Source of the DNA: Lachnospiraceae bacterium
Lineage (GTDB): Bacteria; Bacillota; Clostridia; Lachnospirales; Lachnospiraceae
Assembly: GCA_015057435.1 (NCBI GenBank)
Contig: SVEJ01000017.1
Location: 1-56,225, forward strand
Length of the DNA: 56,225 bases
Reading direction: 5' to 3'
Notes under the pieces: model-generated
Seen by the model: only the letters and a program-made list of their open reading frames with translations
What the model was told of the DNA's origin: nothing
Database searches by the model: none
Shown: piece by piece, positions 2,526-49,119 of the stretch
Layout: the number at the start of each line of letters is the position of its first letter
How positions within the stretch are numbered: the first letter of the stretch is position 1
Position numbers and translations under genes: made by a program

Positions 2526-3242
2526 ATGTTATATATAAAGAATTTGACAAAACATTATAAAGGGAGCACGAAAGGTGTAACGGATCTTAGTTTACACGTA
2601 GAAGCAGGAGACATTTTTGCTTTTATTGGTCACAATGGTGCAGGGAAGACGACTACATTAAAGTGTGTCGCAGGTATTCATAATTTTGATCAGGGAGAAA
2701 TTCAGATTCATGGTTTGTCTATGAAAGAGGAATCCCTAGCATGTAAGAAACAGTTTGCTTATATTCCGGATAATCCGGATTTGTTTGATTATCTGACAGG
2801 AATTCAGTATTTGAATTTTATAGCAGATGTATTTGAGGTGTCGGGTGAGGAAAGAGAAAGACGTATTGAAAAGTATGCAAATGCATTTGGAATTATGGAG
2901 TCTTTAGGAGACTTGATTTCTTCCTATTCTCACGGGATGAAACAGAAATTGGCAATTATTTCGGCATTGCTACATAAGCCGAAACTGCTTATTTTGGATG
3001 AACCTTTTGTGGGATTAGACCCTCAGGCGGCAGTTGTCTTGAAAAATACAATGCGTGAATTATGTGAAGAAGGTGGCGCAATTTTCTTTTCGACGCATGT
3101 GCTTGATGTGGCAGAAAAGCTATGTAATAAGGTGGCAATTATTAAAGAAGGAACTTTGATAAAAAGCGGTAACATGGAAGATGTTGTGAAAGAAGGTATT
3201 TCACTTGAGGACATTTTCATGGAGGTGGTTTGCGATGAATAA
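2526..3242 (+). CDS. ABC transporter ATP-binding protein
   Basis: This 238-residue ATPase has Walker A (GHNGAGKTTT, residues 35-44), a signature in the form YSHGMKQK (about 137-144), Walker B with LLILDEPFVGLDP (about 155-167) and an H-loop (STHV). It is of the drug or multidrug export type that pairs with a separate membrane subunit. The start ATG 2526 follows AGGAAGGG. The stop TAA 3240-3242 overlaps the start of the permease gene at 3235, so the two subunits are coupled. The likely role is export or membrane protection under control of the MerR regulator. Confidence 0.9.
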   Translation: MLYIKNLTKHYKGSTKGVTDLSLHVEAGDIFAFIGHNGAGKTTTLKCVAGIHNFDQGEIQIHGLSMKEESLACKKQFAYIPDNPDLFDYLTGIQYLNFIADVFEVSGEERERRIEKYANAFGIMESLGDLISSYSHGMKQKLAIISALLHKPKLLILDEPFVGLDPQAAVVLKNTMRELCEEGGAIFFSTHVLDVAEKLCNKVAIIKEGTLIKSGNMEDVVKEGISLEDIFMEVVCDE

Positions 3243-4857
3243 TTGCAATTTTACGATGCAACTTGCTACTTTCATAAAACTGCAACTTGTGAATCTCTAT
3301 GGGAAGAATGTATACCGAAATCTAAAAGACCCAAAAGAAAAGAGGAAAAAATTCTGGCTTTATATTGCCTATTTTTTTATCATTATTGTAGTGGCGGGTT
3401 ATGCAGGAGCGATGAGCTATGGTTATGTATACATAGGTCTTGCAAAGATTTTGCCGGCATATTTGATTATGCTGGTAAGTCTCATTATCTTACTGTTTTC
3501 CATATTTAAGGCGGGAGATGTTATTTTTCAAAAGAATTCCTATGATATATTGGTTTCTCTTCCGGTGAAGAACAGCACGATCGTAATCAGTAGATTTGTG
3601 CGTCTTTACGTGGAAAATGTATTACTTGCTGCGACGGTTATGTTGCCGGCAATGGTTGTGTTTGGTATTCTGGAAAGACCATCATGGTCGTTTTATGTAA
3701 TTGGTTTGATTGTAGTATCCTTTATACCGCTTGTCCCAATTACTGTTTCGGTGTTTGTTGGTGCATTGATTAAAGCAATTTCAGCAAGAAGCAGGAATAA
3801 GAATCTCGTAAGCATACTTCTTTCGCTAACTCTTATGATGTGTCTTATGGTTGGTGGTATGCGTTTGTCCGTATCGGCAGAGAACATGGATATCAATGAA
3901 TTAAAAAATCTGCTGGATATGATGTTGCGTGCGATCAATCGTATGTATCCGCCGGCAATTTGGCTTGGTGATGCAATGCTGACAGGAAATTTTGCAGTAT
4001 GTTTTGCATGTGTTTGTGCGGGTTTTGTTGCTTTGTGGATGGTAATTGCTTTCTTGTCAATGAACTATACGAGGATTTGTGATGGAATTTTCAGTACAAG
4101 CGCAAGACATGATTATAAGATGAAACACCTAAAAAGCAGTCATATGCTTGGTGCATTATATAAAAGAGAGTTTAAACGTTATTTTGCTTCTAGTGTCTAT
4201 GTAACCAATACAATTGTTAGTCCTATTATGGGGATGTTGTTTGCGGGAGCGATGCTTTTTGTGACGCCGGAGCAATTAGAAGCTGCAGCAGCAGACTTTT
4301 ATGCACAAAGCGGGATGGTGTTGCAGATGCGGAGTATGTTGCCGATGGCACTTGCCAGTGTGTTTTGTATGATGCCGATTACTGCAGTTTCTATATCTAT
4401 GGAGGGAAAACAGTGGTGGATCGTAAAGACGTTGCCTATTAGCGCAAAGCAACTGCTTGACAGCAAACTCCTCATGAATCTTAGTATACTGGCACCGTGT
4501 TGTGGGGTTTCTGTGATTTTGGTAGCGATTGGACAAAAGGTTACACCTATAGAGTTTGTATGGCTTTTGCTTGTACCTTTTTTGTCTATAGTTTTTTCGT
4601 GTATCTTAGGTCAAACGGTTAATTTGAAATTGCCGGTGTTTGATTGGGAAAATGAAGTGTCTGTAGTGAAACAAAGTGCGTCCACGTTTGTAGGTGGCCT
4701 GCTACCATTTTTAGTAATGATCGTCATGACATTTGGTGTGATGTTGGTTCCGGCGCAATATACGAATTTGATAATGGGCCTGTTATGTATGGTTTTAGGA
4801 ATTGCTGCATTGATGCTGTATCGAAACAATAGCAAGGTGGATTTGCTTTCTATCTAA
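3235..4857 (+). CDS. ABC transporter permease of the ABC-2 type, partner of the preceding ATPase
   Basis: The 540-residue product is mostly hydrophobic, with around 12 predicted membrane segments in two clusters (about residues 45-270 and 340-535) separated by a short soluble stretch. I start it at ATG 3235, preceded by GGAGGTGG at 3220-3227. A longer open frame begins at 3205, inside the ATPase gene, but has no such site. It overlaps the ATPase stop by eight bases. The sequence style is that of single-chain exporter permeases in Firmicutes, but I cannot name a substrate. A strong terminator follows, closing the operon that began at 897. Confidence 0.85.
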   Translation: MNNCNFTMQLATFIKLQLVNLYGKNVYRNLKDPKEKRKKFWLYIAYFFIIIVVAGYAGAMSYGYVYIGLAKILPAYLIMLVSLIILLFSIFKAGDVIFQKNSYDILVSLPVKNSTIVISRFVRLYVENVLLAATVMLPAMVVFGILERPSWSFYVIGLIVVSFIPLVPITVSVFVGALIKAISARSRNKNLVSILLSLTLMMCLMVGGMRLSVSAENMDINELKNLLDMMLRAINRMYPPAIWLGDAMLTGNFAVCFACVCAGFVALWMVIAFLSMNYTRICDGIFSTSARHDYKMKHLKSSHMLGALYKREFKRYFASSVYVTNTIVSPIMGMLFAGAMLFVTPEQLEAAAADFYAQSGMVLQMRSMLPMALASVFCMMPITAVSISMEGKQWWIVKTLPISAKQLLDSKLLMNLSILAPCCGVSVILVAIGQKVTPIEFVWLLLVPFLSIVFSCILGQTVNLKLPVFDWENEVSVVKQSASTFVGGLLPFLVMIVMTFGVMLVPAQYTNLIMGLLCMVLGIAALMLYRNNSKVDLLSI

Positions 4858-4876
4858 AGACAAGACATCTGAGTAT

Positions 4877-4917
4877 AAAAAGGAATGCTTACATTTCGTA
4901 AGTATTCCTTTTTCTTT
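4877..4917 (+). terminator. Terminator closing the MerR-protease-ABC operon
   Basis: AAAAGGAATGCTTAC pairs with GTAAGTATTCCTTTTT across a 5-base loop, followed by a T-rich tract. It begins 20 bases after the permease stop codon. The A-rich left arm would make it partly functional on the minus strand too. Confidence 0.85.
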
Positions 4918-5026
4918 GGTTGTATCTTCGTGGAATAACAGATATCGAAGAACTGATAATACATGTGAAAACAGACAATGATATTTGTGCATAATGTCAA
5001 AAATACAGGCGGTGTTTAAAATGGAA

Positions 5027-5055
5027 TTGTAATTAATTTCCAAAACGATTATCAT
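5027..5055 (+). promoter_or_regulatory. Probable sigma-A promoter of the giant surface-protein gene
   Basis: TTGTAA (5027-5032) and TATCAT (5050-5055) are separated by 17 bases. Transcription would start near 5062, giving a leader of about 45 bases before ATG 5108. Both boxes deviate from consensus, so this is a candidate only. Confidence 0.5.
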
Positions 5056-5107
5056 ATAGATAAGTATGGAAAAGTGCACGTATTCAATGGTTATAGGAGG
5101 GTTTGAC

Positions 5108-8100
5108 ATGTTTTACAAAAAGCAAAGCAAGCGGAAAATACATCTGCTGGCAAGTATAATATTAGGTGCATCCTTGATGGTGGGAACAGTATCACATGCA
5201 ACAAGCAATGAAGAGTCTTCAAAGATGAAGATGGTAGACTTAACTGCAGGCGTTACCTTGATGTATGACGCTACAGATACGGAAAAGGAAACACCGATTG
5301 GTATCAATTTGAATGGTAACTCTGTTGTAATTGAGGTGTCTGAAACGGATACATCTTACAACAACATTTATATTGATGAGAATAAGAACGGAAAAGTTGA
5401 TGAAGGTGAAGCAGCAGTAACTTTTGGGGATACCATAGATGTTTCTGCAGGTTTGCCTATTTATGGTGTTTATGAAAGTAGATCGGAAACACCAATTTCT
5501 ATTACATTGAATAGTGGACATGCACCGAAATTATATGGTGTTTATAATGGTGAAATGGATGTTGCAGAAGGTGTGGCTATCACGATGAATGTGAATGGCG
5601 GAACAATTACCTCTATGTTGACTGCGGCGTATGGATCAAGCGTTACTGCAGCGGGAAATGTTCCTGTTGATGTGAATCTTACAGCAGGCGTTGTTTGCTA
5701 TATGAATGCTGTGGATTTTTCTACTGTAGATGCAGGGGTGAATACGAATGTGGCAGTAGATATAGATGTGACAGGAACAGTTACTGTGCCGAATAATCTG
5801 ATTGCGATTAATGGTAATTATTCTAGTCGATCTGAGGTTATAGGTTCTGTTGATGTGAATATAGATTTGGACAAGGCACCAACCTCAGGTAATAATATAT
5901 ATAGCGTAAAAGGTCTTGCCTATGCGACTGTAGATGGAGATTACAAGATTACTGCCAATAATGCATGGTTATATGAAATCTATGGCATGACATATGCATG
6001 GATAAAGGGAAACTATACATTTGACATGAAACCTACGTGTAGTGCGTCTTATTATACAAAGGCTATGGAGTATTCATCTGTTGATGGGAATGCCGACATT
6101 CGTTTGGTTGGATTTACAGCAGGTACAACAACATATAATTATGTATATGGTATTGAAGAACATAATAGTTCTGTAGCGTATGCAGTAGGTGGAACGTGTA
6201 CAATTGATTATGTGGGTGGATATACGAACAGATTATCAATGATAGATGGTTCGTATCAGAACTCTGTATTTGTAGGAGATATAACCTGTACTGTTAGTGG
6301 AGGAGAGATTTATAACCTGTACGGTGTGAGTGAATTTGATGCCAACAGTAATATTGAAATGATTATTAAGAAAACAGCGAATATCACAGGTTATTGTTAT
6401 GCTGTAAGAAATGGTGATGTTGAGGGGGATGCTACAGTTACTGCTTCGAATGGTAATAAAACCAATAGTTACAGCTACTTTTATGGAGCATATAATATGA
6501 ACATAAAGGGAGATTTGCTCGTTACTGTAGACGGAGGATACTGGTATGACATGTATGGCATATATGGTTCTTCTTCCGGCGGATATGTGATTACGGGCAA
6601 TGCAACGGTTGACTTTAAAAATATCAATGTAAATCAAAAGTCTTTTGGATCTACTTTTAATGGTACGTGTTATGCGGATGTTCAGGGTAATCTGGAAATA
6701 AGTGTTACGGACTCTGAGTTTAGTTCGCTTACAGGAAATTATTACAGTAAAGTAGCTAAGAATTTGATTACAAGATTTGATGGGGTTGATGTTTCGAGCG
6801 AATTATATGGTTCTAAGTCTTATGAAGTTGGTGGAACAGTGACCAATACAATGAACAAAGTAACCGGTCAAAAAGTGTATGGATTTTATTTGCAATCGGG
6901 AGAATGTACAGGCGATGTAACAAGTACAATCAACGATGCGACAGCAACGACAGAATTGTATGGTGTTACTGCTTACAACAGAACAAGATTGTTCAAGGGT
7001 GCAATTCATTCTACGCTGCAAGACAGCAGTTCCTATAAAGCATATGCAATTTATAATGTGGAAGCACAAGGTGAGGCGAGTGCAACGATAATAGGTGGAA
7101 CATATGGTGACAGTACGAAAAATGCGACACTGTTTGGTATGTTTGACCTTTATACACCTGAAAAGTCTACGGTTGAAATCAACGGGACATCGCTTGTGGG
7201 AGAATTGACACCGTACAAAGCTTATTATCAAGCCGGTCAGGGTGATGCGACGGTTTCAATTGAGGGATTAACCATTGATGAAGGTAACCTTACATATAAC
7301 CGAATTACAAACCAACCATATGAAGAACAAAATGTGCATATGACGATTGAGGATTCTACTTTGTCGACAATTACACGAATTCTTCCGGGGTCTGGATATG
7401 GTAAAGGTACAGCAACCTATAACGGCGCATATTATTATGCAGGAAAGTTTGTGTTCGATGAAAATCTAACAAAGGATACAATCTATTTTGTTGCGGGTGA
7501 TTATCATATTCCAAAAGGGGTTACTGTTAAAGCTAACAAAGCATTCTATTATGAAGGTGGAAACATGTTGCTAGAAGGTGACTTAGATGGAAAGTTCGAA
7601 GGCTTAGATGAAACGAAGAATCAATACACAGGCGCGTATATCTTCATGAACGGTGGTACGTTAGATCCGGCGTTGAGTACAATTGGCGGTCTTTATTATC
7701 CATTGAATGTGACAGCTAGTGAGATTGGCGGTAGCATTACGAACAAAAGCACAATATATGCAAAGCGTCATGCATTTGGTGGTGAGCAGTTATTTGGAAG
7801 AGTTGGATATAAGATTGAATATGCAATGACTCCAATCACCGGTTACAAATTAAAGAGTGCAAAATTTACATGCAACGATGTTACAACGGACATAGATGTC
7901 AATGCAGCCGGTGGCACGTTTGGATTTACAATGCCAATGGGTGTAACTTCTTTGGATGTTGTATTTGATGGAAAAGATTTAGTACTTGGTAAAGCGACAA
8001 GCGATCCGGTTTTAAAACTAAATCAGGAATATACGGTAGAAACACCGGCATATGATTTGTCGACGATTATGATTAGTAATGATGCGGAAGACGGCGAAGT

Positions 8101-37335: not shown

Positions 37336-38751
37336 ATGTACAAACAGGTATCAAAATTAATTGTATATAGAGATTTAGGGGAAGACAGTATTTTAAAACG
37401 GCTGGCTAACATATTTGAAGATTTTGATTGGTATAAGGAGAATGTGCTCGGCAATTCTTCTGCATTTAGTGCTTCGAAGTTAGAAGAAATGAAAGATAAA
37501 AAACATATCAGTAAAGAAACACTGATTACAAGAATCTATGCTGAGATTAAGCGCTTATTGGATTTGGCAACAGACTATGGTTTTGATAAAAACTTATGGC
37601 ATAATTATCTTACGTTCTTATTGATGACCAATGAAAACTCATTTACTTTAACAAGTGAAAAAATTGGTGCAAACGAAGGCAGTGTGAATCATTTTGCTAA
37701 GAATGATTTCAAGATTTTTAAGGAACTGTTTGACTATAATTTCTATGAAATTGAAAAAGAATTGGGGATAGATTGTTTTTCAACGATTTCTAATTATCAG
37801 GCGATTGTTAAAAAGGAACGTATGTATAATTACAATGTTTCACAAAAGGTACAGGCACTGTCTTGCCGATTAGAGCAGTGTGACAATGAGGATGGATTTT
37901 TCAAAGAGGTGACACGGTTTTATGCAGACTATGGTGTTGGTATGTTTGGTCTTAACAAAGCATTTCGTATCCGTCCTGTGGCAGGAGCAGTTTGTAATGA
38001 GGACAGTACGCCGGCAGCGGGAACAGTTGATATCTATCCGATTAACAATACGGAAAATGTGGTGCTTGACGATCTGATTGGCTATGAGATTCAAAAACAG
38101 AAATTGATTGATAATACCGAGGCTTTTGTGGAGGGAAGACCGGCTAACAATTGTCTGTTGTTTGGTGATTCCGGAACAGGAAAGTCTACCTGTATCAAAG
38201 CGATTATCAATGAGTATTATGACCGTGGTCTTCGCATGATAGAAATCTATAAACATCAGTTTAAGGATTTGTCTACGGTGATTGCAATGATTAAGAATCG
38301 GAATTATCGCTTCATCATTTATATGGATGATTTATCCTTTGAAGAGTTTGAGATTGAGTATAAGTTTTTGAAAGCAGTCATTGAAGGCGGCGTGGAGACG
38401 AAACCGGATAATGTGTTAATCTATGCGACGTCGAATCGAAGACATCTGATTAAAGAAACATGGAACGATAGGAATGACTTAGAACATGGTGGCGGCGGTG
38501 AATTGCATCGTTCCGATACAATGCAGGAGAAACTGTCACTCGTGAATCGTTTTGGCGTTACAATTAATTTCTCGAGACCGAATCAAAAGGAATATTTCCA
38601 TATTGTAACAGAGCTTGCAAAGCGAAATCCGCAGATTACTTTGACAGAACAGGAATTGATTGCAGAGGCAAACAAATGGGAACTTTCGCACGGTGGTATA
38701 TCGGGGCGTACAGCGCAACAATTTGTAAACTATGTGGCAGGTAAGGCATAA
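37336..38751 (+). CDS. DUF815-type AAA+ ATPase
   Basis: The 471-residue protein has an alpha-helical N-terminal part (about 1-235) and an ATPase domain. The latter has Walker [10 protein letters not shown] (about 276-284), Walker [12 protein letters not shown] (about 328-338), and a sensor-like ATSNRRHL with [21 protein letters not shown] (last third split across about 365-400), as in DUF815/YpfJ-like proteins. These ATPases are poorly characterised. I prefer ATG 37336; GTG 37321 is in frame but has no ribosome binding site, while the sequence before 37336 (AAAGTGAG) is only weakly complementary. The gene overlaps the upstream leader of the next gene, whose start lies 16 bases past its stop. 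Confidence 0.85.
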
Positions 38752-38767
38752 AGTAAGGGAGCAGCAG

Positions 38768-40573
38768 ATGAAGATTGTTTTGGCGGCATTGAATGCAAAG
38801 TATGTGCATTCAAATCTTGCAGTATATGATATTGCAGCGTATGTAAGAGAACAATGGAAAAAAGAAGATTGCAGGGGAGACGCCCCTGAACTTTTTGTGC
38901 GCGAATATACAATTAATCATAATCTAGACGCAATTTTGCAGTCTATATATCAAGAAAAGGCGGCAGTGGTTGCCTTTTCTTGTTATATCTGGAATATTTA
39001 TGAAATCCTGACAATTGCAAAAGAATTACATAAGGTTGCACCGAATGTGAAAATCTGGCTGGGCGGACCGGAAGTTAGTTTCGACAGTTGTAAGATTTTA
39101 GAAGATAATCCGTTTATAGAAGGTGTCATGAGCGGTGAGGGAGAAGCAACGTTTTACGAGCTGACAGCGTGTTGGTGCGGAAAAAGAGATTTTGATAAAA
39201 AGAAATATGAAGATATATTGGGAATAACGTATCGTGATGCAAATGATACAGTTTGTGAGAACGCTCCACGACCATTAATATCTCTTTCGGATGTACCGTT
39301 TGTGTATCAAGATCTGTCTTTGTTTGAAAATAGAATTTTATATTATGAAACAAGCAGAGGGTGTCCGTTTTCTTGCAGCTATTGTTTGTCGTCTATTGAC
39401 AAACGTGTAAGATTTCGAGATCTGTCTTTGGTGGAGAAGGAATTGCAGTTCTTTTTGGATAACAAGGTTTCGCAGGTGAAATTCATTGACAGGACGTTTA
39501 ACTGCAACAAAGAACATGCGATGGCAATATGGCGTTATATTACAGAACATGATAACGGTGTGACGAATTTTCATTTTGAAGTATCGGCAGACTTGCTTAG
39601 TGAGGAAGAACTTGCGCTCTTTGAAACGATGCGACCGGGGCTTATTCAGCTGGAAATTGGTTTGCAGTCTACCAATCCGGAAACGATTCGGGAAATACGA
39701 AGAAGCATGAATATCGACAGAGTAAAGTCCAACATGCTTGCAATCAGAACGTTTGGTAATATACATCAACATCTGGATTTGATTGCCGGTTTGCCGTATG
39801 AAGATTTTGAAAGCTTTAAGAACTCATTTAATGAGGCGTATGATATGAAACCAAATCAGTTGCAATTGGGATTTTTGAAAGTGTTGAAAGGATCTTATAT
39901 GGAAACGCAAAGTGTCACATATGATCTGCAATACCAGGACTTTCAACCATATGAAGTGTTAGCGACGCGCTGGTTATCGTATGATGAGATTTTGCGACTG
40001 AAATTAGTAGAAGAAATGGTGGAAGTCTATTATAATAGTGATCAGTATGAACATGTATTAGCGTACATTGTGCCGATGTTTGATTCACCTTATTCATTTT
40101 ATGAAGCACTAGGTGCGTATTATAAGAAACATGATTTGTTTGGAATCGGATTCAAACGGGAAAGAAGATACGAGGTGTTGAAGGATTTTTGTGAACAGTG
40201 TTTGGCAGGTAAAGTTTCCATGGAAATCCTGATGAGTTTATTGAATTATGATTATTATCTCAGGGAGAATGCAAAGAGTCGCCCAATTTGGAGTTGCACG
40301 GATCCTATTGAAAAACAGCTGTATCAAAGCTTTTTCAAAAATGGAGGGAATGAAGAGATTCGTTTGGATAAAGAGGGATATGACTCTAAGATGGCAGCGA
40401 GAATGATGCATATTGAACCAATTTCGACAAAAGCGGTTCGATTTATTGTGGAAGAAACGGAAGATATGAATATTTTTGAAGAAATAAACCAGACAGTATA
40501 CTGCCTGTTTGATTATCAGAATAGAAATCCGTTGTCTAAGGATGCAGATGTAGTAATGCTATCGCATTTATAA
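38768..40573 (+). CDS. B12-binding radical SAM protein (DUF4080 type)
   Basis: ATG 38768 follows AAGGGAG. The 601-residue enzyme has a cobalamin-binding-like N-terminal Rossmann part (about 1-135: LAALNAKYVHSNLAVYDIA, WLGGPEVSF, GEGEATF). A radical SAM barrel (about 185-390) carries the iron-sulfur motif CPFSCSYC (C-x3-C-x2-C, about residues 200-207) after ETSRG. A C-terminal DUF4080-like region has FGIGFKRERRYEVLKDF. Members of this class usually carry out radical methylation or rearrangement on an unidentified substrate, often RNA or small molecules. No clear DxHxxG cobalamin-ligand motif is seen, so cobalamin binding may be base-off. It precedes the zinc-ribbon/TPM array by about 60 bases. 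Confidence 0.85.
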   Translation: MKIVLAALNAKYVHSNLAVYDIAAYVREQWKKEDCRGDAPELFVREYTINHNLDAILQSIYQEKAAVVAFSCYIWNIYEILTIAKELHKVAPNVKIWLGGPEVSFDSCKILEDNPFIEGVMSGEGEATFYELTACWCGKRDFDKKKYEDILGITYRDANDTVCENAPRPLISLSDVPFVYQDLSLFENRILYYETSRGCPFSCSYCLSSIDKRVRFRDLSLVEKELQFFLDNKVSQVKFIDRTFNCNKEHAMAIWRYITEHDNGVTNFHFEVSADLLSEEELALFETMRPGLIQLEIGLQSTNPETIREIRRSMNIDRVKSNMLAIRTFGNIHQHLDLIAGLPYEDFESFKNSFNEAYDMKPNQLQLGFLKVLKGSYMETQSVTYDLQYQDFQPYEVLATRWLSYDEILRLKLVEEMVEVYYNSDQYEHVLAYIVPMFDSPYSFYEALGAYYKKHDLFGIGFKRERRYEVLKDFCEQCLAGKVSMEILMSLLNYDYYLRENAKSRPIWSCTDPIEKQLYQSFFKNGGNEEIRLDKEGYDSKMAARMMHIEPISTKAVRFIVEETEDMNIFEEINQTVYCLFDYQNRNPLSKDADVVMLSHL

Positions 40574-40632: not shown

Positions 40633-42243
40633 ATGTATGCATGTCCGAATTGTAATGCCGGGTTAAAATATGATATTGCATCTGGGATGTTAGGATGTGA
40701 ATACTGTAATACAAAGTATGATCCGTATGAGATGGATGGTCCGCAAACAGCAGTGGAAAATGACACGTTAGAAGTTACAGTGTTTAGCTGTTCGCAATGT
40801 GGAGGTGAGTTATATACAACGGATACTACGGTGGCAGGATTTTGCAGTTTTTGTGGCTCTACAACAGTATTAAACAGTCGTATTGAGAAAACACTTCGTC
40901 CGGATTATATTATTCCGTTCCAAAAGACAAAAGAGGATTGCAAGAATGCATATGCTAAGATGATGTGCTTTGCTATTTTCGCACCAAAGGAACTAAAAAA
41001 CAAAGATTGTATTGATAGCTTTCGCGGCATCTATATGCCGTATTGGATGTATGATGTAAGATATGCAGATCGAGTAGAGATACAAGGCGTACAAGAACGT
41101 ATGGTGGATGAATATAAGGTGGAATCATTTTATAGATTAAGCGGTGACTTGGATGCCGGTTACAAAGGCATTTCTTATGATGGTTCATCTTCCTTTTCAG
41201 ATAATATCAGTGAAAAGATTGCACCATTTGATGTGAAGCATATGAAGGAGTTCACGCCTGCATTTCTCAGTGGATTTTATGGTGATACGGCAGATGTGGC
41301 ATCTGAGGTATATAAAAAAGATGCGTTGCAAAGTGCTGAGAATATGACGGTGAATTACTTGAAGAAACATGAAAAATTCAAGGAATTTGAGATTAGAGAT
41401 AAGGAATCGGTGAGACGCGAATTGAATCCGTCGTCGCAAGATGTGCATCGTGCGATGCTGCCCGTATGGTTTATGTCGTATCGCAATCATGATCGTATTG
41501 CTTATGCAACTGTGAATGGACAGACTGGAAAAGTGGTTGTAGATTTGCCGGTAGATATCAGAAAATATCTATTCGGAACTTTGCTGCTTGCAATACCAAT
41601 CTTTGTCTTGATGAATATGTTTTTTACTGTTACCCCTTCTGTATTGCTCGTTTTAGTCTCTTTGTTTTCTGTTGGTATAGCGGCGTTGCATACTTTGGAA
41701 ATGAAAGAAATTATGGAACGGGATAATTATCAGGATGACCGGGGGATGCTATATAGTCTGGAGGAAGACGAAGATAATGAAAAAGATGATAAAAACGCTT
41801 CCGAAGGAGAGGGCGAGAACATAAAACAAAAGAAGAAAGTACCGATTGCTGTATGGATATTTGGCGCAATATTGTTTTATATCTTTGTGCTTCCTTTTGT
41901 GGGGGACTTTGTGAAGAACATGCAAGTTGAGTGGTTGCTTTGTTTGCCGCTAGTTGCTATGCTGGTTGGCGCAGTGATTGCAGTGGTAAAAAGTGTATCG
42001 TTTATGAAGAAAACAGAATTGAAGAATAAGGTGCCGGCGAATCTTTTTTGCCTGGCGGCCATAATCATGGCGTTCGTTATTGTTTTGTTAAGGCCGATTC
42101 ACGATTGGTGCTACTATCTCGGAACGATTTTATCAATGGGAGCAGTTTTGGTGACATTGATTGACTTGATTCGAAAATATAACGTGTTGTCTACCAGAAA
42201 ACTGCCACAGTTTGATTATAAGGGAGGTGATGACAATGCGTAA
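40633..42243 (+). CDS. Double zinc-ribbon membrane protein, copy 1
   Basis: ATG 40633 follows GGAGGAGAG. The 536-residue product has two zinc ribbons: CPNC/CEYC at about 4-26 and CSQC/CSFC at about 52-75. The globular region that follows has motifs shared by its two paralogues here: DYIIPFQKTKEDCK, SFRGIYMPYWMYDV, GISYDGSSSFSDNISEKIAPF-type sequence and YATVNGQTGKV. Five or so membrane helices make up the rest (about 308-510). Relatives are often labelled TFIIB-type zinc ribbon proteins or, wrongly, PriA helicase. The function is unknown. It overlaps the downstream TPM gene by eight bases (ATG 42236, TAA 42241), so the two products are made together and probably interact. Confidence 0.85.
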   Translation: MYACPNCNAGLKYDIASGMLGCEYCNTKYDPYEMDGPQTAVENDTLEVTVFSCSQCGGELYTTDTTVAGFCSFCGSTTVLNSRIEKTLRPDYIIPFQKTKEDCKNAYAKMMCFAIFAPKELKNKDCIDSFRGIYMPYWMYDVRYADRVEIQGVQERMVDEYKVESFYRLSGDLDAGYKGISYDGSSSFSDNISEKIAPFDVKHMKEFTPAFLSGFYGDTADVASEVYKKDALQSAENMTVNYLKKHEKFKEFEIRDKESVRRELNPSSQDVHRAMLPVWFMSYRNHDRIAYATVNGQTGKVVVDLPVDIRKYLFGTLLLAIPIFVLMNMFFTVTPSVLLVLVSLFSVGIAALHTLEMKEIMERDNYQDDRGMLYSLEEDEDNEKDDKNASEGEGENIKQKKKVPIAVWIFGAILFYIFVLPFVGDFVKNMQVEWLLCLPLVAMLVGAVIAVVKSVSFMKKTELKNKVPANLFCLAAIIMAFVIVLLRPIHDWCYYLGTILSMGAVLVTLIDLIRKYNVLSTRKLPQFDYKGGDDNA

Positions 42244-43108
42244 TTGGAAAAACGATTGTATTGCATTTGTACTTTTGGTTGTGTCCACCGTTTTGTTGTT
42301 TCCTTCTAATGATGTTTTTGCGCAAGTCCTTTATGAAAGCACCAACGGATATGAAGTAGTGATAGATGATGAGGCAGAATTATTAACGGATGATGAGGAA
42401 GCACGGTTATTGCAGTCGATGAAACCCATCACAGAATATGGTAATGTAGCCTTCAAATCTGTAGATGCCGGAACTGAAATTATTGTTGATAAATTTGCAG
42501 ATCTCTATTATCAGGATTTGTGGGGAAGTGAAAGCGGAACTGTGTTTGTGATTGATATGGAAAATCGTATGATTTATATCCATAGTGTAGGGACTGTTTA
42601 CGGAAGTTTGAAAAAATCCTATGCCAATACGATTACAGATAACGTATATACATATGCTACAAAGGGTGATTATGCATCATGTGCCGACAAAGCGTATGAG
42701 CAGATATACACGGTCTTAGAAGGCGGAAGAATTGCGCAGCCAATGAAATATATTAGCAATGCGTTGTTTGCCTTTTTAATGTCGTTTGTGATTTTGTATG
42801 TTATAGTAAAATTGGTTTCCAAAGCAAAAAGACCGTCTAAGTCACAATTGTTTAAAAGCTTGGATGTTTCTCAAACTATGGATAATGTCAAGATTGATTA
42901 CCTGAGTGAAAAGAGAACATATATAGCTGTGCGTGATGGAGAATTCTGGTTAAGTATTTTTTTGGAACTGCTAGAGGCTGTTCTGTTGGGATTTCTCGGC
43001 GGCGGTGGCGGCGGAAGTCGTGGCAGTGGCGGCGGAAGTCGTGGCGGTGGCGGCGGAAGTCGTGGCGGTGGCGGCGGAAGTCGTGGTGGTGGCGGCCACA
43101 GATTCTAA
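42236..43108 (+). CDS. TPM-domain membrane protein with glycine-rich tail, copy 1
   Basis: ATG 42236 lies eight bases after GGGAGG and inside the end of the zinc-ribbon gene. The 290-residue product has a signal sequence (about 8-27). A TPM-phosphatase-like domain follows (about 28-165: VVIDDEAELLTDDEEARLL, FVIDMENRMIYIHS, YANTITDNVY), then a membrane helix (about 183-202). A charged linker, a short second hydrophobic stretch and a tail of GGGGSRGG-type repeats end in GGGGHRF. TPM domains occur in plant photosystem II repair proteins and in many bacterial YgcG-like proteins. The topology suggests the TPM domain is outside the membrane and the Gly tail inside, or in the membrane. The zinc-ribbon protein is its likely partner. 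Confidence 0.85.
   Translation: MRNWKNDCIAFVLLVVSTVLLFPSNDVFAQVLYESTNGYEVVIDDEAELLTDDEEARLLQSMKPITEYGNVAFKSVDAGTEIIVDKFADLYYQDLWGSESGTVFVIDMENRMIYIHSVGTVYGSLKKSYANTITDNVYTYATKGDYASCADKAYEQIYTVLEGGRIAQPMKYISNALFAFLMSFVILYVIVKLVSKAKRPSKSQLFKSLDVSQTMDNVKIDYLSEKRTYIAVRDGEFWLSIFLELLEAVLLGFLGGGGGGSRGSGGGSRGGGGGSRGGGGGSRGGGGHRF
43005..43088 (+). repeat. Four 21-base tandem repeats encoding the glycine-rich tail
   Basis: The unit GTGGCGGCGGAAGTCGTGGC plus one base is repeated four times (43005-43025, 43026-43046, 43047-43067, 43068-43088), with a partial fifth copy before the stop. Only single-base changes separate the units. The local GC content is far above the neighbourhood. The run can change length in multiples of seven codons without a frameshift. 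Confidence 0.85.
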
Positions 43109-43155
43109 AAAGCACGTATAAAGTGGTAGAATGATTATACGAAGGAGGAAGATAA

Positions 43156-44757
43156 ATGTATCAATGTAGTAATTGTAACGGCAATCTTGTGTTTGACATT
43201 GCTTCGCAGAACTTACAATGTGCATATTGTAGTACGCAATATGATCCATATGAGATGGATCAGACAATTCATGCGAATGAAATGGATACAATGGATGTTA
43301 CGGTATATACTTGTTCGCAATGCGGAGGGGAGTTATACACGACAGACACATCGATGACAAGTTTTTGTAGTTTTTGCGGTACGGAAGCGCTGTTGTATAG
43401 TCGTGCATCAAAAGAACAAAAACCGGAATATATTATTCCGTTTAAGAAGACAAAAGAAGATTGTAAACAATTATATAAAAAAATGATGCGTATGGCGATT
43501 TTTGCACCGAAGGAGCTAAAGGATGAGAAATGTATTGATAGCTTCAGAGGTATCTATATGCCATACTGGATGTATGATGTGAATCATGAAAAACCGATGG
43601 ATGTGGCTGGAGAAACAAGTCATAGAAGTGGAGATTATATCTATACGTCTCATTACCGATTAACGGCAGATTTGGATGTACATTATAACGGCATTTCGTA
43701 TGATGGCTCGTCGTCATTTTCGGATAATATCAGCGAGAAGATTGCGCCGTTTCAGGTAGCACATCTAAAGCCGTTTACGCCTGCTTATATGAGTGGGTTT
43801 TATGCAGATACAGCAGATGTAGATGAATCGGTTTATTGTGAAGATGTTACGCGATTTGCTAACGATAAGACAGGAGAATTTATTCGCAAGCATCCTGACT
43901 GCAAAAAGTATGAAATTAGTCAGGAGAGTATTGATATGGATTTGGGGAATGCAATTGAGCGGACACATCGTGCGATGTTTCCGGTATGGTTTATGTCATA
44001 TCAAAAAGACGGACGTGTGACATATGCGACAGTGAATGGACAGACCGGTAAGGTGGTGGCAGATTTGCCGGTGGACTTAGGGAAATACTTAATAGGAACA
44101 TTCGCCTTAGCGTTGCCGATTTTTATATTGTTGAATATGTTTTTAACTGTAACACCGGGTGTTTTGTTGTCGGTTGTATCCGGTATTGCAGCATTTGTCT
44201 CTGTTTTATATGCTATCGAGATTGGAAAAATTGTAAAAAGAGACAACTATGAGGATGACAAAGGAAAACAATCAAAGATAAAACAGGATATGAATGTCGA
44301 ACAAAAGAAGGTAAAAGGGGCTACTATGTCGAAGGAGGTTAAAACTGTGCTTATAGTGGTTGGCGCTACCATTTTAATATCATTCGTAAGTCAGTTTCTT
44401 ATAATTTCTGAGGTGTTGGTTGCAGAAATTTTTGGTGTATCATCATTGAGTGTGATTGTTTGTGGTGTTACACTAATTATTTCGATTGCAGCGTTGGTAT
44501 TTAGTAACATAAGTGCGAAGAAACTGAATGCTACAATAAAAGGACGGTCATCTGTTTTTTGCATGATAGCAACTCTGATAGCGTTGTTGATTGCGATTTT
44601 GAATCCGGTACATGATGCCTTCTATTATATTGGTGCGATGGCGGGGCTTGCGGCAGTGTTTGCTACATTGCTTGACCTAATTAAGAAGTATAATGTGCTT
44701 GCAACAAGAAGATTACCTCAATTTGATTATACAGGAGGTGATAACAATGCGTATTAA
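43156..44757 (+). CDS. Double zinc-ribbon membrane protein, copy 2
   Basis: ATG 43156 follows GAAGGAGG. The 533-residue product is paralogous to the protein at 40633 over its full length, with the same order: ribbon CSNC/CAYC (about 4-26), ribbon CSQC/CSFC (about 52-75), SFRGIYMPYWMYDV, GISYDGSSSFSDNIS, YATVNGQTGKVVADLPVDL, then membrane helices. The loop between the two helix groups differs most from copy 1 (Lys-rich IKQDMNVEQKK against the acidic EDEDNEKDDK). The stop TAA 44755-44757 lies 11 bases inside the next TPM gene, as in the first pair. This close overlap is the main evidence that the two proteins are a functional pair. Confidence 0.85.
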   Translation: MYQCSNCNGNLVFDIASQNLQCAYCSTQYDPYEMDQTIHANEMDTMDVTVYTCSQCGGELYTTDTSMTSFCSFCGTEALLYSRASKEQKPEYIIPFKKTKEDCKQLYKKMMRMAIFAPKELKDEKCIDSFRGIYMPYWMYDVNHEKPMDVAGETSHRSGDYIYTSHYRLTADLDVHYNGISYDGSSSFSDNISEKIAPFQVAHLKPFTPAYMSGFYADTADVDESVYCEDVTRFANDKTGEFIRKHPDCKKYEISQESIDMDLGNAIERTHRAMFPVWFMSYQKDGRVTYATVNGQTGKVVADLPVDLGKYLIGTFALALPIFILLNMFLTVTPGVLLSVVSGIAAFVSVLYAIEIGKIVKRDNYEDDKGKQSKIKQDMNVEQKKVKGATMSKEVKTVLIVVGATILISFVSQFLIISEVLVAEIFGVSSLSVIVCGVTLIISIAALVFSNISAKKLNATIKGRSSVFCMIATLIALLIAILNPVHDAFYYIGAMAGLAAVFATLLDLIKKYNVLATRRLPQFDYTGGDNNAY

Positions 44758-45514
44758 AAACGTTAAGATATTGCTTGCATGTATAGTTGTTAGTTTGGTA
44801 TTGTTTTGTGGGAAACTGACAGTCTGTGCAAATGTTGTTTATCAAAATGATAATGGATTTCAGGTGTATATTAGTGATGAAGCGGATTTGTTGACAGAGC
44901 AAGAAGAAGCGGATTTACAAAAGGTAATGCAACCAATCACAGAATTTGGAAATGTTGCGTTTAAGACGACTTCCAACAATGCTTCTTCAACAGAATATTT
45001 TTCTGAAACCTATTATAAAGGTTTGTGGGGAAGAGAGAGTGGAACCATATTTGTTATTGATATGGCAAACAGATATCTTTATATCTATAGTGATGGAGCA
45101 GTGTATAGAACAATAACGGAGGCTTACGCTAATACGATAACGGATAACGTCTATACGTATGCAACAGATCAGCAGTATTATCTGTGTGCTTCTAAGACAT
45201 TTGAACAGATTGGAACTGTTTTAGAAGGTGGTAAGATTGCACAACCGATGAAATATGCAAGTAATGCATTTTTGGCTGTGATTTTATCATTTATTATCTT
45301 ATATTTCTGGGTAAAGATTGTTTCTGTTGCCAAGAAACCTTCAAAGTCAGAGTTGCTGCTTGGTGTGCAATTCTTGCAATCGATGGGAGCAGTTCATGCA
45401 CAGTTTACACATGAAACCAAAACGTATAGTCCCCAAAGCTCCGGTAGTAGCGGCGGTGGCGGAAGCTCCGGCGGCGGTGGCGGCGGTGGTGGCGGTGGTG
45501 GCCACAGCTTCTAA
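44747..45514 (+). CDS. TPM-domain membrane protein with glycine-rich tail, copy 2
   Basis: ATG 44747 follows AGGAGG (44733-44738) with the usual spacing, and overlaps the upstream gene by 11 bases; an earlier in-frame start (44693) has no ribosome binding site. The 255-residue protein has a signal sequence (about 5-25) and a TPM domain (about 26-165; YISDEADLLTEQEEADLQ, FVIDMANRYLYIYS, YANTITDNVYTYAT). One membrane helix (about 187-207) and a polyglycine tail follow, ending GGGGGHSF. The mature part is close to copy 1. The last residues, Gly-His-basic/polar-Phe, are conserved between the two copies. Confidence 0.85.
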   Translation: MRIKNVKILLACIVVSLVLFCGKLTVCANVVYQNDNGFQVYISDEADLLTEQEEADLQKVMQPITEFGNVAFKTTSNNASSTEYFSETYYKGLWGRESGTIFVIDMANRYLYIYSDGAVYRTITEAYANTITDNVYTYATDQQYYLCASKTFEQIGTVLEGGKIAQPMKYASNAFLAVILSFIILYFWVKIVSVAKKPSKSELLLGVQFLQSMGAVHAQFTHETKTYSPQSSGSSGGGGSSGGGGGGGGGGGHSF

Positions 45515-45553
45515 ATGGAATGACAATAGAATGGATTTGACAGGTGAGAAAAA

Positions 45554-47557
45554 ATGTATGGATGTCCGAATTGCGGTAGCAATTTAAAATATAATATACA
45601 ATTAAAGAAAATGTCTTGCGAACATTGTGATTCGGTATTTAATCCGAATCAATTCGGTGACGCTGAAGGGGCAAAACAGAGTGATTTGGAAGTGACGGTG
45701 TTTACTTGTCCGCAGTGTGCAGGAGAATTATATACGACAGATAATGAAATGGCAGGTTTTTGTAGTTTTTGCGGAGCGTCTACAGTTTTAGAGAGCCGTA
45801 TTGCGAACGAAAAAAGACCGGACTATATTATTCCTTTTCAAAAAACAAAGGAAGATTGTAAAGAAGAGTATCTAAAACGTATACATAAAGTCTTCTTTGT
45901 TCCGAAAGAATTGAAAAGCATGGAGTATGTAGAGGGTTTTCGCGGCATTTATATGCCGTATTGGATTTACGATGTAAAACAAGAAGGTCAGCTCTCTTTT
46001 GATGGCAAGAAGAGAAAGTGGGAATACGATTATGATATTACATCATATTATAAGCTGGAAGGCGAACTTTCGGCACAATATGAAGGAATCAGCTATGATG
46101 CATCATCGTCTTTTCCTGATGATATGAGTAAGAATGTAGCACCTTATAAATTGAATGGGTTGCGTGAGTTTTCTCCTGTATATTTGAGTGGGTTTTATGC
46201 AGATGCTTCAGATTTGGATGCTTCCGTTTATGAAGACGATGTCGTTGGCATGACAGAACAAATGACCGGGGAATATGTGAAAAATCATTATGACTTAGTG
46301 CCGTATATGATTAACAAGAAAGATGAGCAAATAAGAGAACTGATGAATACAACGATAGAAAAAAAGGCACAGGCAATGCTTCCTGTATGGTTTATGTCAT
46401 ATCGAAGTAAAGAGTGGGTTTCTTATGCAGCGGTGAACGGGCAGACCGGAAAGGTTGCGTTTGATTTGCCCATGGATTTTAAGAAATATCTCGTGTTATC
46501 AGTTGTTGTGGCGATTCCGTTATTCTTCTTGGTCGGCTTAGCAGATTCGGCATGCAACATTACCTTGCCGATTTTGTTACAGATGTTATTGGTTTTGGCA
46601 TCGTTTGTCAGTGTTTTGCATGCAGGAAGGATTTTGCGTATTGCCCGCAGGGAAAGATTAAAGGATGATAAAGGTGCACGGGTAGCAAAGCTTAGAAAGA
46701 ATAACAAATCAATAAAGGAAAAAAAGCGCAACAAGAGATTGCGGAGAAAAAAAGACAAAGGGTTCAATTGGGATTTCGGTCCTGAAGGTATTATATTTAT
46801 GGCATTTGTTTTTATATGTTGTGCTGCCTATGAGGATTTTAACGGATTAGTTGCGGTCTTGGAATTCGGGTTGGAATTTTGCAGTATGTTGCTTGGAGGC
46901 ATTCCGTATGAAATGATCCTTTTTGGAATCACAATGTTAGCGAGCGGAATTGCATTTGTTGTAAGTGCGGTTAGCTTGGTGAAGAGCGCGGGATTGAAAT
47001 TGTGGAAGGGTGTTCCGCTTCCACTATGTACGTTAGTGTCTGTGATAGTGTCTGTATTCATTTTATGTGCAGGTAAACTGACTGATATTACTTGTAGTAT
47101 ATGTGTTTTACTATTGGGTAGTGTTCTTATTATCACTATGATTGACCTGATCGGAAAGCATAATGTTTTGAATACAAGACGATTGCCGAGTGCAAGAAGA
47201 GGGTTGTTAAATGTAGCACTCTTTCTGTTGATGTTGTCGGCACCGTCTTTGCAAGTGCAGGCGAAAACCAATTACGTACAACATGTTATGGTTTTAGAAC
47301 AAACAATGGAATATGTCATGTTTAATGAACAAGTAGTTGTTTGTGTGAAATACATCGGTCTGGCTATGTTTTCGCTGATTTTGTCAATGATTTTGATGTA
47401 TCGAATTGCCAATAAATCTTTGAAGAGATATTCCGAGATGGACGAAGAATGGCTGGATGGTATTGTTGTAAAACAGGATATACATAATTTGAAAGAGAAA
47501 TTTCTTTACGAAGATAAAAAATATGCTCCGAAAAAACAACGAAATTCTGATTATTGA
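45554..47557 (+). CDS. Double zinc-ribbon membrane protein, copy 3, fused to a TPM-less partner remnant
   Basis: ATG 45554 follows AGGTGAG. The first 540 residues are paralogous to the proteins at 40633 and 43156 (ribbons CPNC/CEHC and CPQC/CSFC, then GFRGIYMPYWIYDV, YAAVNGQTGKVAFDLP and membrane helices). The usual end LPQFDYxGG is replaced at about 47189-47204, without any stop, by a signal-peptide-like run (LLNVALFLLMLSA to VQAKTN). Then follows MEYVMF...VKYIGLAMFSLILSMILMYRIA and an end with EDKKYAP, which line up with the membrane-helix and tail regions of the TPM proteins. The TPM domain and Gly tail are absent. A natural gene fusion with internal deletion is the simplest reading. The product has 667 residues. 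Confidence 0.85.
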   Translation: MYGCPNCGSNLKYNIQLKKMSCEHCDSVFNPNQFGDAEGAKQSDLEVTVFTCPQCAGELYTTDNEMAGFCSFCGASTVLESRIANEKRPDYIIPFQKTKEDCKEEYLKRIHKVFFVPKELKSMEYVEGFRGIYMPYWIYDVKQEGQLSFDGKKRKWEYDYDITSYYKLEGELSAQYEGISYDASSSFPDDMSKNVAPYKLNGLREFSPVYLSGFYADASDLDASVYEDDVVGMTEQMTGEYVKNHYDLVPYMINKKDEQIRELMNTTIEKKAQAMLPVWFMSYRSKEWVSYAAVNGQTGKVAFDLPMDFKKYLVLSVVVAIPLFFLVGLADSACNITLPILLQMLLVLASFVSVLHAGRILRIARRERLKDDKGARVAKLRKNNKSIKEKKRNKRLRRKKDKGFNWDFGPEGIIFMAFVFICCAAYEDFNGLVAVLEFGLEFCSMLLGGIPYEMILFGITMLASGIAFVVSAVSLVKSAGLKLWKGVPLPLCTLVSVIVSVFILCAGKLTDITCSICVLLLGSVLIITMIDLIGKHNVLNTRRLPSARRGLLNVALFLLMLSAPSLQVQAKTNYVQHVMVLEQTMEYVMFNEQVVVCVKYIGLAMFSLILSMILMYRIANKSLKRYSEMDEEWLDGIVVKQDIHNLKEKFLYEDKKYAPKKQRNSDY

Positions 47558-47602: not shown

Positions 47603-48382
47603 ATGACTGAATTGGAAAAATATTACAATAAATTTAATGAGGACAAGCGCTTGCTGAGCCGTCATGGTCAAGTGGAATTTATCACGTCTATGAAATATAT
47701 TCATCAGTGTTTGGAAGAGATGGATTCGCCGAAGATTCTTGATATTGGCGCAGGAACAGGACGTTACAGTGTTGCTTTGGCCAATGAAGGCTATGATGTT
47801 ACGGCTGTAGAACTTGTAAAATATAACCTTGGCATTCTTAAGAAAAAGCAAAGCAATGTCAAAGCTTATCAGGGGAATGCGTTGAATCTGAAACGTTTTG
47901 AAGATGAAAGCTTTGATCTTACATTGCTGTTTGGTCCGATGTATCATTTGTATACATTTGAGGACAAATTAAAAGCATTGCAGGAAGCAAAAAGAGTAAC
48001 GAAACCGAATGGAAGAATTCTTGTGGCATATTGTATGAATGAGTATTGCGTATTAACGTATGCATTTAAGGAAAATCATATAAAAGAATGTTTGGAAGAA
48101 AATCGTCTTACAAAAGATTTCCACTCATTAGCGGAAGAAAAGCATCTATATGATTATGTGAGATTAGAGGATATTAATCAGCTGAATGAAGCGGCCGGTC
48201 TTCTACGGGAGCGGATTATATCTCCGGACGGTCCGTCGGATTATATGCGTCCGGTCTTGAATGCCATGGATGAAGAAACATTTCAGATATATATAGATTA
48301 TCATTTGTCGACGTGTGAACGTATGGATTTGATTGGTGCAGGTGCACATACGTTAGATATTTTAAAAAAGGGAATGGAGTAG
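47603..48382 (+). CDS. Class I SAM-dependent methyltransferase
   Basis: The 259-residue protein has the Rossmann-type SAM-binding motif ILDIGAGTGRYSVALA (about residues 39-54), an acidic residue at the end of strand 2 (VTAVELVK), a motif II-like strand FDLTLLFGPMYHL and a motif III region AKRVTKPNGRILVAY. The substrate cannot be inferred. Motif I is complete, so activity is likely. The start ATG 47603 has no close ribosome binding site, which fits the possible leaderless transcript noted at 47590. The downstream sigma-like gene starts six bases after its stop, so both may be co-transcribed. Confidence 0.85.
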   Translation: MTELEKYYNKFNEDKRLLSRHGQVEFITSMKYIHQCLEEMDSPKILDIGAGTGRYSVALANEGYDVTAVELVKYNLGILKKKQSNVKAYQGNALNLKRFEDESFDLTLLFGPMYHLYTFEDKLKALQEAKRVTKPNGRILVAYCMNEYCVLTYAFKENHIKECLEENRLTKDFHSLAEEKHLYDYVRLEDINQLNEAAGLLRERIISPDGPSDYMRPVLNAMDEETFQIYIDYHLSTCERMDLIGAGAHTLDILKKGME

Positions 48383-48387
48383 TAATT

Positions 48388-49119
48388 ATGACAGATCAAA
48401 ATACCTTTATGGAAGTTGTGCGCAATGTGGCAGAGATTGTAAGAACGGCAGAAGTTCCGATGTCAGAGAGCGAAATATTAGCATATTTTTCTGATATGGA
48501 TTTGGATGAGAATCAGAAAAGAATTGTACTTGCGTATATCGAAACGGCACAGAGCGAAGAGACTGAAGAAGGACAACAGGAAGATACAACAGGTGCAGAT
48601 GAAGAAGAACAGGAAGGCAGATCGAAGGTTTTTCAGATGTACTTAGATGAATTATCTTTGCTTCCGTCATTTACTGCAAAAGACAGAGAAAAACTTTACG
48701 AAAGACTATCGTCAGGGGATGAAACGGTTGTTGAGACAATATCCACAGCATGGCTTAAGAAAGTATTGACGCTTGCAGAAAAGTATATGCAACCGAGATT
48801 ACATCTTGAGGATCTTGTGCAAGAGGGAAATATGGCGCTCTTTTTATGTTTGCAGGATATGCTTGGAAAACCGTACAATGAACAGATCGAAGAGGTGTTA
48901 TCCGCGGCGGTTGAAGAAGGGATTATGAACTACTGTTCCGAAATTGTCGGCGAAAGTGAATTGGAAAATACATTGGTTGGAAAAATAAGTCTTGTTCATG
49001 AGGCGAAGAAGATGCTGTCGCTAGAAAAGGGGCAGGCACCTACAATAGAAGAACTTTCAGAGTATACGAAGATGTCAATAGACGAGTTGTCGGAGTTAGA
49101 AGAATATTTGAAACAATGA
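48388..49119 (+). CDS. Sigma-70-like protein lacking regions 2.3-2.4 and 4
   Basis: The 243-residue product has an N-terminal extension with an acidic Glu/Asp stretch (about 50-75). It then has sigma-like region 1.2 (FQMYLDELSLLPSFTAKDREKL, about 78-99), regions 2.1-2.2 (LKKVLTLAEKYMQ... LEDLVQEGNMALF, about 125-155) and region 3-like sequence near the end (EAKKMLSLEKGQAPTIEELSEYT, about 205-230). The -10 recognition and melting segment (2.3-2.4) is replaced by a short unrelated stretch and region 4 is missing. It may bind core polymerase without reading a promoter. The alternative is a decaying sigma factor, but the frame is intact and it follows the methyltransferase gene by six bases. Confidence 0.75.
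   Translation: MTDQNTFMEVVRNVAEIVRTAEVPMSESEILAYFSDMDLDENQKRIVLAYIETAQSEETEEGQQEDTTGADEEEQEGRSKVFQMYLDELSLLPSFTAKDREKLYERLSSGDETVVETISTAWLKKVLTLAEKYMQPRLHLEDLVQEGNMALFLCLQDMLGKPYNEQIEEVLSAAVEEGIMNYCSEIVGESELENTLVGKISLVHEAKKMLSLEKGQAPTIEELSEYTKMSIDELSELEEYLKQ

Follow-up and report, generated by a model that had tools for sequence, protein, structure and literature searches.

Tandem YdjG/YdjH-type genes in a Lachnospiraceae bacterium and the single-pass partners of their relatives

The five-gene array and its coupled reading frames

The window analyzed in this study is a stretch of 56,225 nucleotides from a Lachnospiraceae bacterium (contig SVEJ01000017.1), and its subject is an array of five forward-strand genes encoding zinc-ribbon (ZR) membrane proteins and proteins with a TPM domain. 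ZR1 (40633..42243, +) encodes a YdjG-family protein of 536 amino acids with two zinc ribbons, a soluble domain and six predicted transmembrane (TM) helices, as judged from its open reading frame (ORF), its match to YdjG and its hydropathy; all TM numbers in this study are predictions from hydropathy. TPM1 (42236..43108, +; 290 amino acids from its ATG) comprises a signal/TM segment, the TPM domain, a TM anchor, a juxtamembrane segment and a Gly-rich tail. The second pair consists of ZR2 (43156..44757, +), a paralog of 533 amino acids with six predicted TM helices, and TPM2 (44747..45514, +; 255 amino acids from its ATG). The last gene, ZR3 (45554..47557, +), encodes 667 amino acids with nine hydropathy peaks, two of them in a part fused from a TPM gene. 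All five ORFs were intact. An earlier note, made from the sequence of this stretch, had described two ZR/TPM pairs and a third ZR gene with overlaps of 8 and 11 bases, and the ORFs confirmed this arrangement.

Both TPM proteins passed the cut-off of PF04536 (38.7 and 45.0 bits against 22.1 bits) and were 56% identical to each other. The identity of ZR1 was 52% to ZR2 and 42% to ZR3, and the eight ribbon cysteines were invariant across the three ZR proteins and two Bacillus YdjG proteins. A match of ZR1 to MFS (26.1 bits) lay below the cut-off of 33.4 bits and was put down to generic TM similarity. No solved relative of the ZR profile was found (best E 0.29), and for TPM2 the search for a solved relative gave only matches to the Gly-rich end, mostly antibody scFv chains.

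The ATG starts of TPM1 and TPM2 were each preceded by a strong ribosome-binding site inside the ZR gene. That of TPM1, GGAGGTG (42223..42229, +), lies within the 3' end of ZR1, where it encodes part of the C-terminal GGD. The same feature was common in relatives: among ZR proteins of at least 440 amino acids with GG near the C-terminus, the codons were GGAGG in 45 of 51, compared with 51 of 233 GG pairs in ZR bodies. Furthermore, the partner started no later than the last base of the ZR stop codon in 46/50 pairs of this size, with 8 bases as the commonest overlap, and a Shine–Dalgarno (SD) match of at least 4 bases was present in 50/50, under a rule that picks the best start and thereby favours SD matches. 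With shorter ZR proteins the partner started at or before the end of the stop in 10/30 pairs, so the overlap is mainly a trait of the window's branch. Coupled translation, as proposed earlier, is supported by these overlaps and SD sites. Promoter-like sites were at the level of shuffled sequence (27 vs. 25.1) and terminator-like sites barely exceeded it (7 vs. 4.2, sd 2.1); neither was used.

Relation to YdjG/YdjH and the fused third gene

The ZR1 protein matched YdjG of Bacillus spizizenii with 27% identity over 341 positions (E = 6e-40), spanning the ribbons and the soluble domain, and TPM2 matched YdjH (E = 2e-6). In the B. spizizenii reference locus, where gene names were assigned by homology and order, the order was pspA, ydjG, ydjH and ydjI, and ydjG and ydjH overlapped by 4 bases, or by a single base with the second of two ATG codons as the start. 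According to the available text of PMC8581546, YdjG and YdjH of Bacillus subtilis interact in the two-hybrid assay, and the loss of either abolishes the foci and membrane recruitment of YdjI (an SPFH protein) and PspA. The same text reports cell-shape defects of ydjG and ydjH mutants under alkali stress, and the manner in which the two proteins perceive membrane damage is given there as an open question. YdjG was described in the accessible part of PMC11237479 as two ribbons, a YpeB-related NTF2-like domain and one TM helix; for TPM, a chaperone-like role was favoured there, with competing hypotheses given, and a phosphatase role was deemed unlikely in the portion of PMC12419801 that was available. 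The earlier statement that no role is known for the ZR partner was thus wrong, since it is a relative of YdjG and the YdjG/YdjH pair anchors YdjI and PspA, while the membrane-stress setting suggested alongside it gains support.

Compared with pspA-ydjGHI of B. subtilis, as represented by the B. spizizenii locus, the window pairs share the two zinc ribbons and the same soluble domain, a TPM partner encoded directly downstream in an overlapping gene, and a Gly/Ser-rich C-terminus ending in F. This residue ended 71 of 89 distinct TPM proteins. The differences are that ZR1 and ZR2 have six predicted TM helices and YdjG one, that the window holds an array of copies, one of them fused and TPM-less, and that the window genome has no PspA match and its SPFH gene lies outside the operon. 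The PspA search (PF04012) gave no match in the window genome, which is 92.8% complete, and passed the cut-off in 61 of the 200 family genomes. The sole YdjI-type SPFH match (PF13421) of the window genome was on contig 36, where it is joined by a short YdjG with one TM helix and by a third gene. That third gene (locus L038, 4695-5459, -) encodes one TM helix, a zinc ribbon at the C-terminus and a Tim44-like match that stays below the cut-off. SPFH-YdjG operons of the window's genus have a one-TM protein in the place of the TPM gene, with similar genes in L152-L156. A further ZR gene of this genome was found on contig 9. Membership of the array in a PspA phage-shock system of the pspA-ydjGHI kind was rejected, with no PspA match in the genome and no SPFH gene in the operon.

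Short-type SPFH-YdjG-TPM operons of Lachnospiraceae had the same two families in the same order (18 loci of L074-L092), but their ZR proteins have at most one predicted TM helix and their TPM proteins form a separate class (30/30). With respect to PF04536 of the YgcG-like proteins, TPM1 and TPM2 passed the cut-off but scored below many short-type partners, and the domain was absent from several copies related to the window pairs.

The length of ZR3 is explained by its last ~120 residues, which are an in-frame-fused remnant of a TPM gene without the TPM domain, a feature that the earlier note missed. The nearest relative of ZR3 was the ZR protein of a sister species, G209, which carries one pair in the same slot; the two were 65% identical in the tree alignment (56% over 550 residues) and sisters in the tree (SH-aLRT 100). 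The separate TPM gene of G209 encodes 260 amino acids without a Gly tail and scored 24.0 bits against the cut-off of 22.1. The extra C-terminus of ZR3 corresponded to both ends of this gene with the TPM domain absent between them. Its first part (47195..47335, +), a remnant of the TPM signal/TM segment with a short outside loop, matched with 37% identity over 41 amino acids (E = 3e-4), a match that includes some residues before this part. The second part (47336..47554, +) is the TPM-protein anchor, namely a TM helix and a cytosolic juxtamembrane segment; it matched with 38% identity over 63 amino acids (E = 3e-15) and scored E = 3.6e-12 with a long-type anchor profile. By these matches, ZR3 is a ZR-TPM fusion that has lost the TPM domain and kept the anchor. 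The matches listed for 26 genus genomes included no other fused ZR3.

The slot itself, made up of a DUF815 ATPase, a radical SAM gene, one pair and a methyltransferase, was found in L123, L124 and L125. One pair in the same slot of sister loci indicates that the window is an amplified version, in agreement with the local amplification put forward in the earlier note; no remnants of additional ZR or TPM copies were found in the gaps of the three sister loci (best E 0.15). The DUF815 neighbour was 92-94% identical to those of three sister species, the radical SAM DUF4080 protein just 64-69% and the nearest ZR 61-65%. On the left, the slot is bordered by the B12-binding radical SAM gene (DUF4080; 38732..40573, +), the same neighbour as in the three sister loci, and on the right by a class I methyltransferase gene (47603..48382, +), which was found in 10/47 loci searched. 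The gene 3' of the methyltransferase (48388-49119) gave weak matches to sigma-70 regions 2 and 3, both below the cut-off, and a sigma-70-like gene after the methyltransferase was also present in 10/47 loci searched. In 3 of 26 genus loci (L041, L123 and L125) the pair had a G209-type ECF sigma gene in its vicinity, whereas none was found in the window. Likewise not found in the window were an LD-carboxypeptidase (S66) gene that stands beside the pair in L123, L124 and L041, and genes for a small membrane protein and a PLDc_N/zinc-ribbon-like membrane protein that stand beside it in L123, L125 and L041; in L123 this group of genes lies at 3241-6242 (-).

Partner types in Lachnospiraceae and other Clostridia

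The family sample consisted of 200 Lachnospiraceae genomes, in which search-threshold matches were obtained for ZR in 136, TPM in 133 and the PF13421 SPFH family in 147. For pairing, 150 listed ZR matches were compared with 150 listed TPM matches, and the counts are lower bounds. A listed TPM match lay 0-2000 bases downstream on the same strand for at least 108 of the 150 ZR matches; among those listed, TPM was upstream of ZR in 3, all within arrays, and on the opposite strand within 4 kb in none, so the arrangement is not due to chance. The earlier note had named rare adjacency of the two gene types in other genomes as a refutation; in the family they are usually adjacent, which supports a conserved pairing.

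The 42 listed ZR matches without a listed TPM downstream were each inspected, 19 in loci fetched earlier and 23 as a held-out set. The former comprised 5 with TPM after all, 12 with a TPM-less small membrane protein, 1 with a Tim44-like gene, and ZR3. The latter comprised 4 with TPM, 9 with a small membrane protein lacking TPM (57-79 amino acids long in eight and 141 in L179), 9 without a partner gene and 1 cut by a contig end. Fused ZR tails had first been spotted by eye and were tested afterwards with an anchor profile built solely from 29 canonical TPM partners; the search set was 114 ZR tails plus a background of 3805 ORFs. Among the 9 held-out ZR proteins without a partner gene, a C-terminal anchor was matched in 7 at E ≤ 1e-5 and in L170 at 0.046, with no match in L166, and no ZR tail beyond those nine fell below E = 1. 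The idea that these genes lack any partner was therefore rejected in 8 of the 9 cases, one of them weak, and stands for L166 and for short single-TM ZR genes of other Clostridia. In the background, the profile matched the small partner of L179 (2.7e-13), followed by that of L150 (0.3) and another ORF (0.4). In total, the 150 listed ZR matches comprised 117 with TPM, 21 with a small partner and 9 with the anchor in cis, a figure that counts both ZR3 and the weak case, the remaining three being the Tim44-like case, one left unassigned and one cut. Anchor homology was shown for few of the 21 small partners, and none of the 9 scanned passed any Pfam cut-off.

As a control, a TM-containing ORF starting at -60 to +150 from the stop was sought by one criterion behind 126 ZR genes and 450 other genes, three ZR genes cut by contig ends being set aside. 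It was present in 118/126 vs. 146/450, although L174 and L177 among the 118 proved to be unrelated membrane genes and a few loci overlap. Stricter counts (115/126 and 42/450) were uneven, with three TM helices allowed for ZR genes and two for controls, and the looser counts were relied on.

Partner forms varied further. In L130, L139 and L144, from the genus, the overlapping gene encodes one TM helix and a PLD-like domain (PF13091, 42.5-47.6 bits vs. 27). The HxK motif was not seen by eye in these three sequences, and the domain is therefore probably inactive. In L145 and L146 the overlapping gene encodes a one-TM protein of 65-66 amino acids. The PLD-like partners were not listed by the long-type anchor profile; one of them, that of L139, tied to the 65-amino-acid partner, its TM helix and following segment matching those of L146 (E = 3e-9). 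A second membrane gene of 201-220 amino acids, without a Pfam match over the cut-off, follows the 65-66-amino-acid partner (L145:6294-6896; L146:124-783, -). In G091, partners of 72 and 158 amino acids beside TPM-bearing copies scored 1.6e-3 and 1.8e-5 with the same profile, and in L051 (genome G111) ZR and TPM form one protein of 869 amino acids, a full fusion. Array-type ZR genes (L045, L046, L047, contig 9 of the window genome and others) have partners of 57-108 amino acids sharing a motif among themselves, as seen by eye; their scores with the long-type anchor profile, where listed, were E 0.067 to 19, and their anchor homology is suggested by position and motif only. L045, L046 and L047 are tandem arrays of 2-4 short ZR genes; behind every one of these stands a separate one-TM gene of 62-108 amino acids, and the small genes differ in length within an array. 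Elsewhere, one frame held three TPM matches (L198:3809-5797), and two consecutive TPM genes stood behind one YdjG (L199:3538-6203).

In a quick ZR tree with a midpoint root, the groups with PLD-like and 65-66-amino-acid partners formed one clade (100) within the long clade (98). Three of its rows were wrongly labelled 'mini', namely L081 (TPM cut by a contig end), L166 (no partner) and L196_4532 (a divergent second ZR). With a TPM protein taken as the ancestral partner, the state found in Bacillus, this tree would require the TPM domain to have been lost several times independently; the putative cases are ZR3, G091, the PLD/65-66-amino-acid clade and the fused group, whose label needs at least two changes on starred branches. 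Moreover, pN (0.11-0.39) was lower than pS (0.37-0.83) in 9/9 partner comparisons, six of small and three of PLD-like partners; the six alone gave pN 0.16-0.39 and pS 0.37-0.83. ZR and TPM distances were correlated, with r = 0.81 for 48 long pairs, 0.38 for 30 short pairs and 0.88 for all 78, compared with 0.40, 0.25 and 0.17 for the best of 200 shuffles. The nearest TPM protein was within its own class in 48/48 and 30/30 pairs.

In the wider class, a YdjG match was obtained in 119 of 291 genomes. The 30 best of these loci, which are biased to the Bacillus type and include one from the family, had TPM by profile in 28 and by eye in L201; no TPM gene was found in L223. Among 20 further loci chosen for variety, 3 had TPM, 2 a small one-TM partner and 5 longer tails unmatched by the anchor profiles. 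In the other 10, nothing recognisable as a partner was seen (L231, L233, L237, L240, L243, L244 and L246-L249), and 6 of these had an SPFH gene in the locus. The anchor pattern therefore fails in other Clostridia and is shown for Lachnospiraceae alone.

A proposed membrane platform and its docked partner

Homology, coupled gene order, conserved overlap and co-divergence, all read from sequence, make it likely that each window pair forms a YdjG/YdjH-type membrane complex that recruits an SPFH protein and is docked through the anchor segment of the TPM protein. The ZR protein would be a cytosolic platform, with ribbons and soluble domain inside and six TM helices in the window's branch. It would dock the TPM protein via its TM helix and the following cytosolic segment; the TPM domain would lie outside the membrane, where it may be a sensor or a chaperone, and the Gly-rich tail would extend into the cytosol. 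The complex may recruit the genome's YdjI-type SPFH protein and not PspA. If the platform needs the docking piece and not the TPM domain, ZR3-like copies could drop the domain and keep the anchor in cis.

Several results weigh against this reading. SPFH was in the fetched stretch of 11/18 short-type pairs (L074-L092) and not beside the window array, and among the long pairs fetched it was seen solely in L073. PspA could have been missed because the genome is 92.8% complete. The same nearest neighbour was found for ZR and TPM in 24/78 pairs, so the fine branching is not mirrored, and the structure prediction was too poor to use (mean pLDDT 40.3). In addition, the short ZR genes that stand beside SPFH without a recognisable partner in some Clostridia indicate that the partner is not needed everywhere.

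A pair that serves membrane-protein assembly or quality control unrelated to SPFH and PspA, with TPM as a chaperone outside the membrane, is an unlikely alternative. A chaperone-like assembly role has been proposed for TPM proteins of photosystem and respiratory complexes (available part of PMC11237479), and the array has no adjoining SPFH or PspA gene. However, the nearest characterised relatives work with SPFH and PspA, and several relatives that have dropped the TPM domain but retained the anchor would be left without chaperone activity. It is still less probable that ZR3 and the other TPM-less copies are decaying pseudogenes whose anchor is merely not yet lost. ZR3 has neither a TPM domain nor a separate partner start, two intact pairs adjoin it, and it stood as the one fused copy of its kind among the genus rows, but its frame is open for 667 codons. 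Moreover, 8 of the 9 held-out proteins that have no partner gene showed the fused form again, one of them weakly, and in all six comparisons of small TPM-less partners the values look like those of proteins under selection. Least probable of all is a signalling or competition array with members diversifying against each other, for although the ZR and radical SAM genes differ far more between sister species than DUF815 does and tandem ZR arrays recur in L045, L046 and L047, no toxin, immunity or secretion gene was seen among the flanking genes identified, and PADLOC gave two weak matches, both to ZR1, and nothing for the remaining four array proteins.

Beyond the SPFH-recruiting complex proposed for the window, we give about even odds to a wider reading, in which the YdjG family is a constant membrane platform with a coupled, exchangeable single-pass partner whose TM-plus-juxtamembrane segment docks and whose attached domain sets sensing or delivery. 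On the same even odds, partners in Lachnospiraceae would come as TPM proteins, as bare anchor-like proteins of ~57-158 amino acids, as one-TM proteins with an apparently inactive PLD-like domain or as anchors fused to the platform. Literature searches listed studies of YdjG/YdjH in Bacillus and comparative surveys of Psp systems, together with E. coli genes that share these names but are unrelated. The available text of this literature (PMC8581546, PMC12419801, PMC11237479 and PMC9239133) yielded no mention of a six-TM YdjG, TPM-less partners or fusions. The ZR3 fusion with its anchor kept and the recurrent TPM-less forms in Lachnospiraceae appear to be new here. If the partner is indeed exchangeable, the small partners would constitute a protein family that has not been described. 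These natural variants, each without one domain, suggest which parts may be dispensable, the TPM domain in several lineages and the anchor segment less so. The array also offers a candidate complex for recruiting SPFH proteins in Lachnospiraceae that have no PspA.

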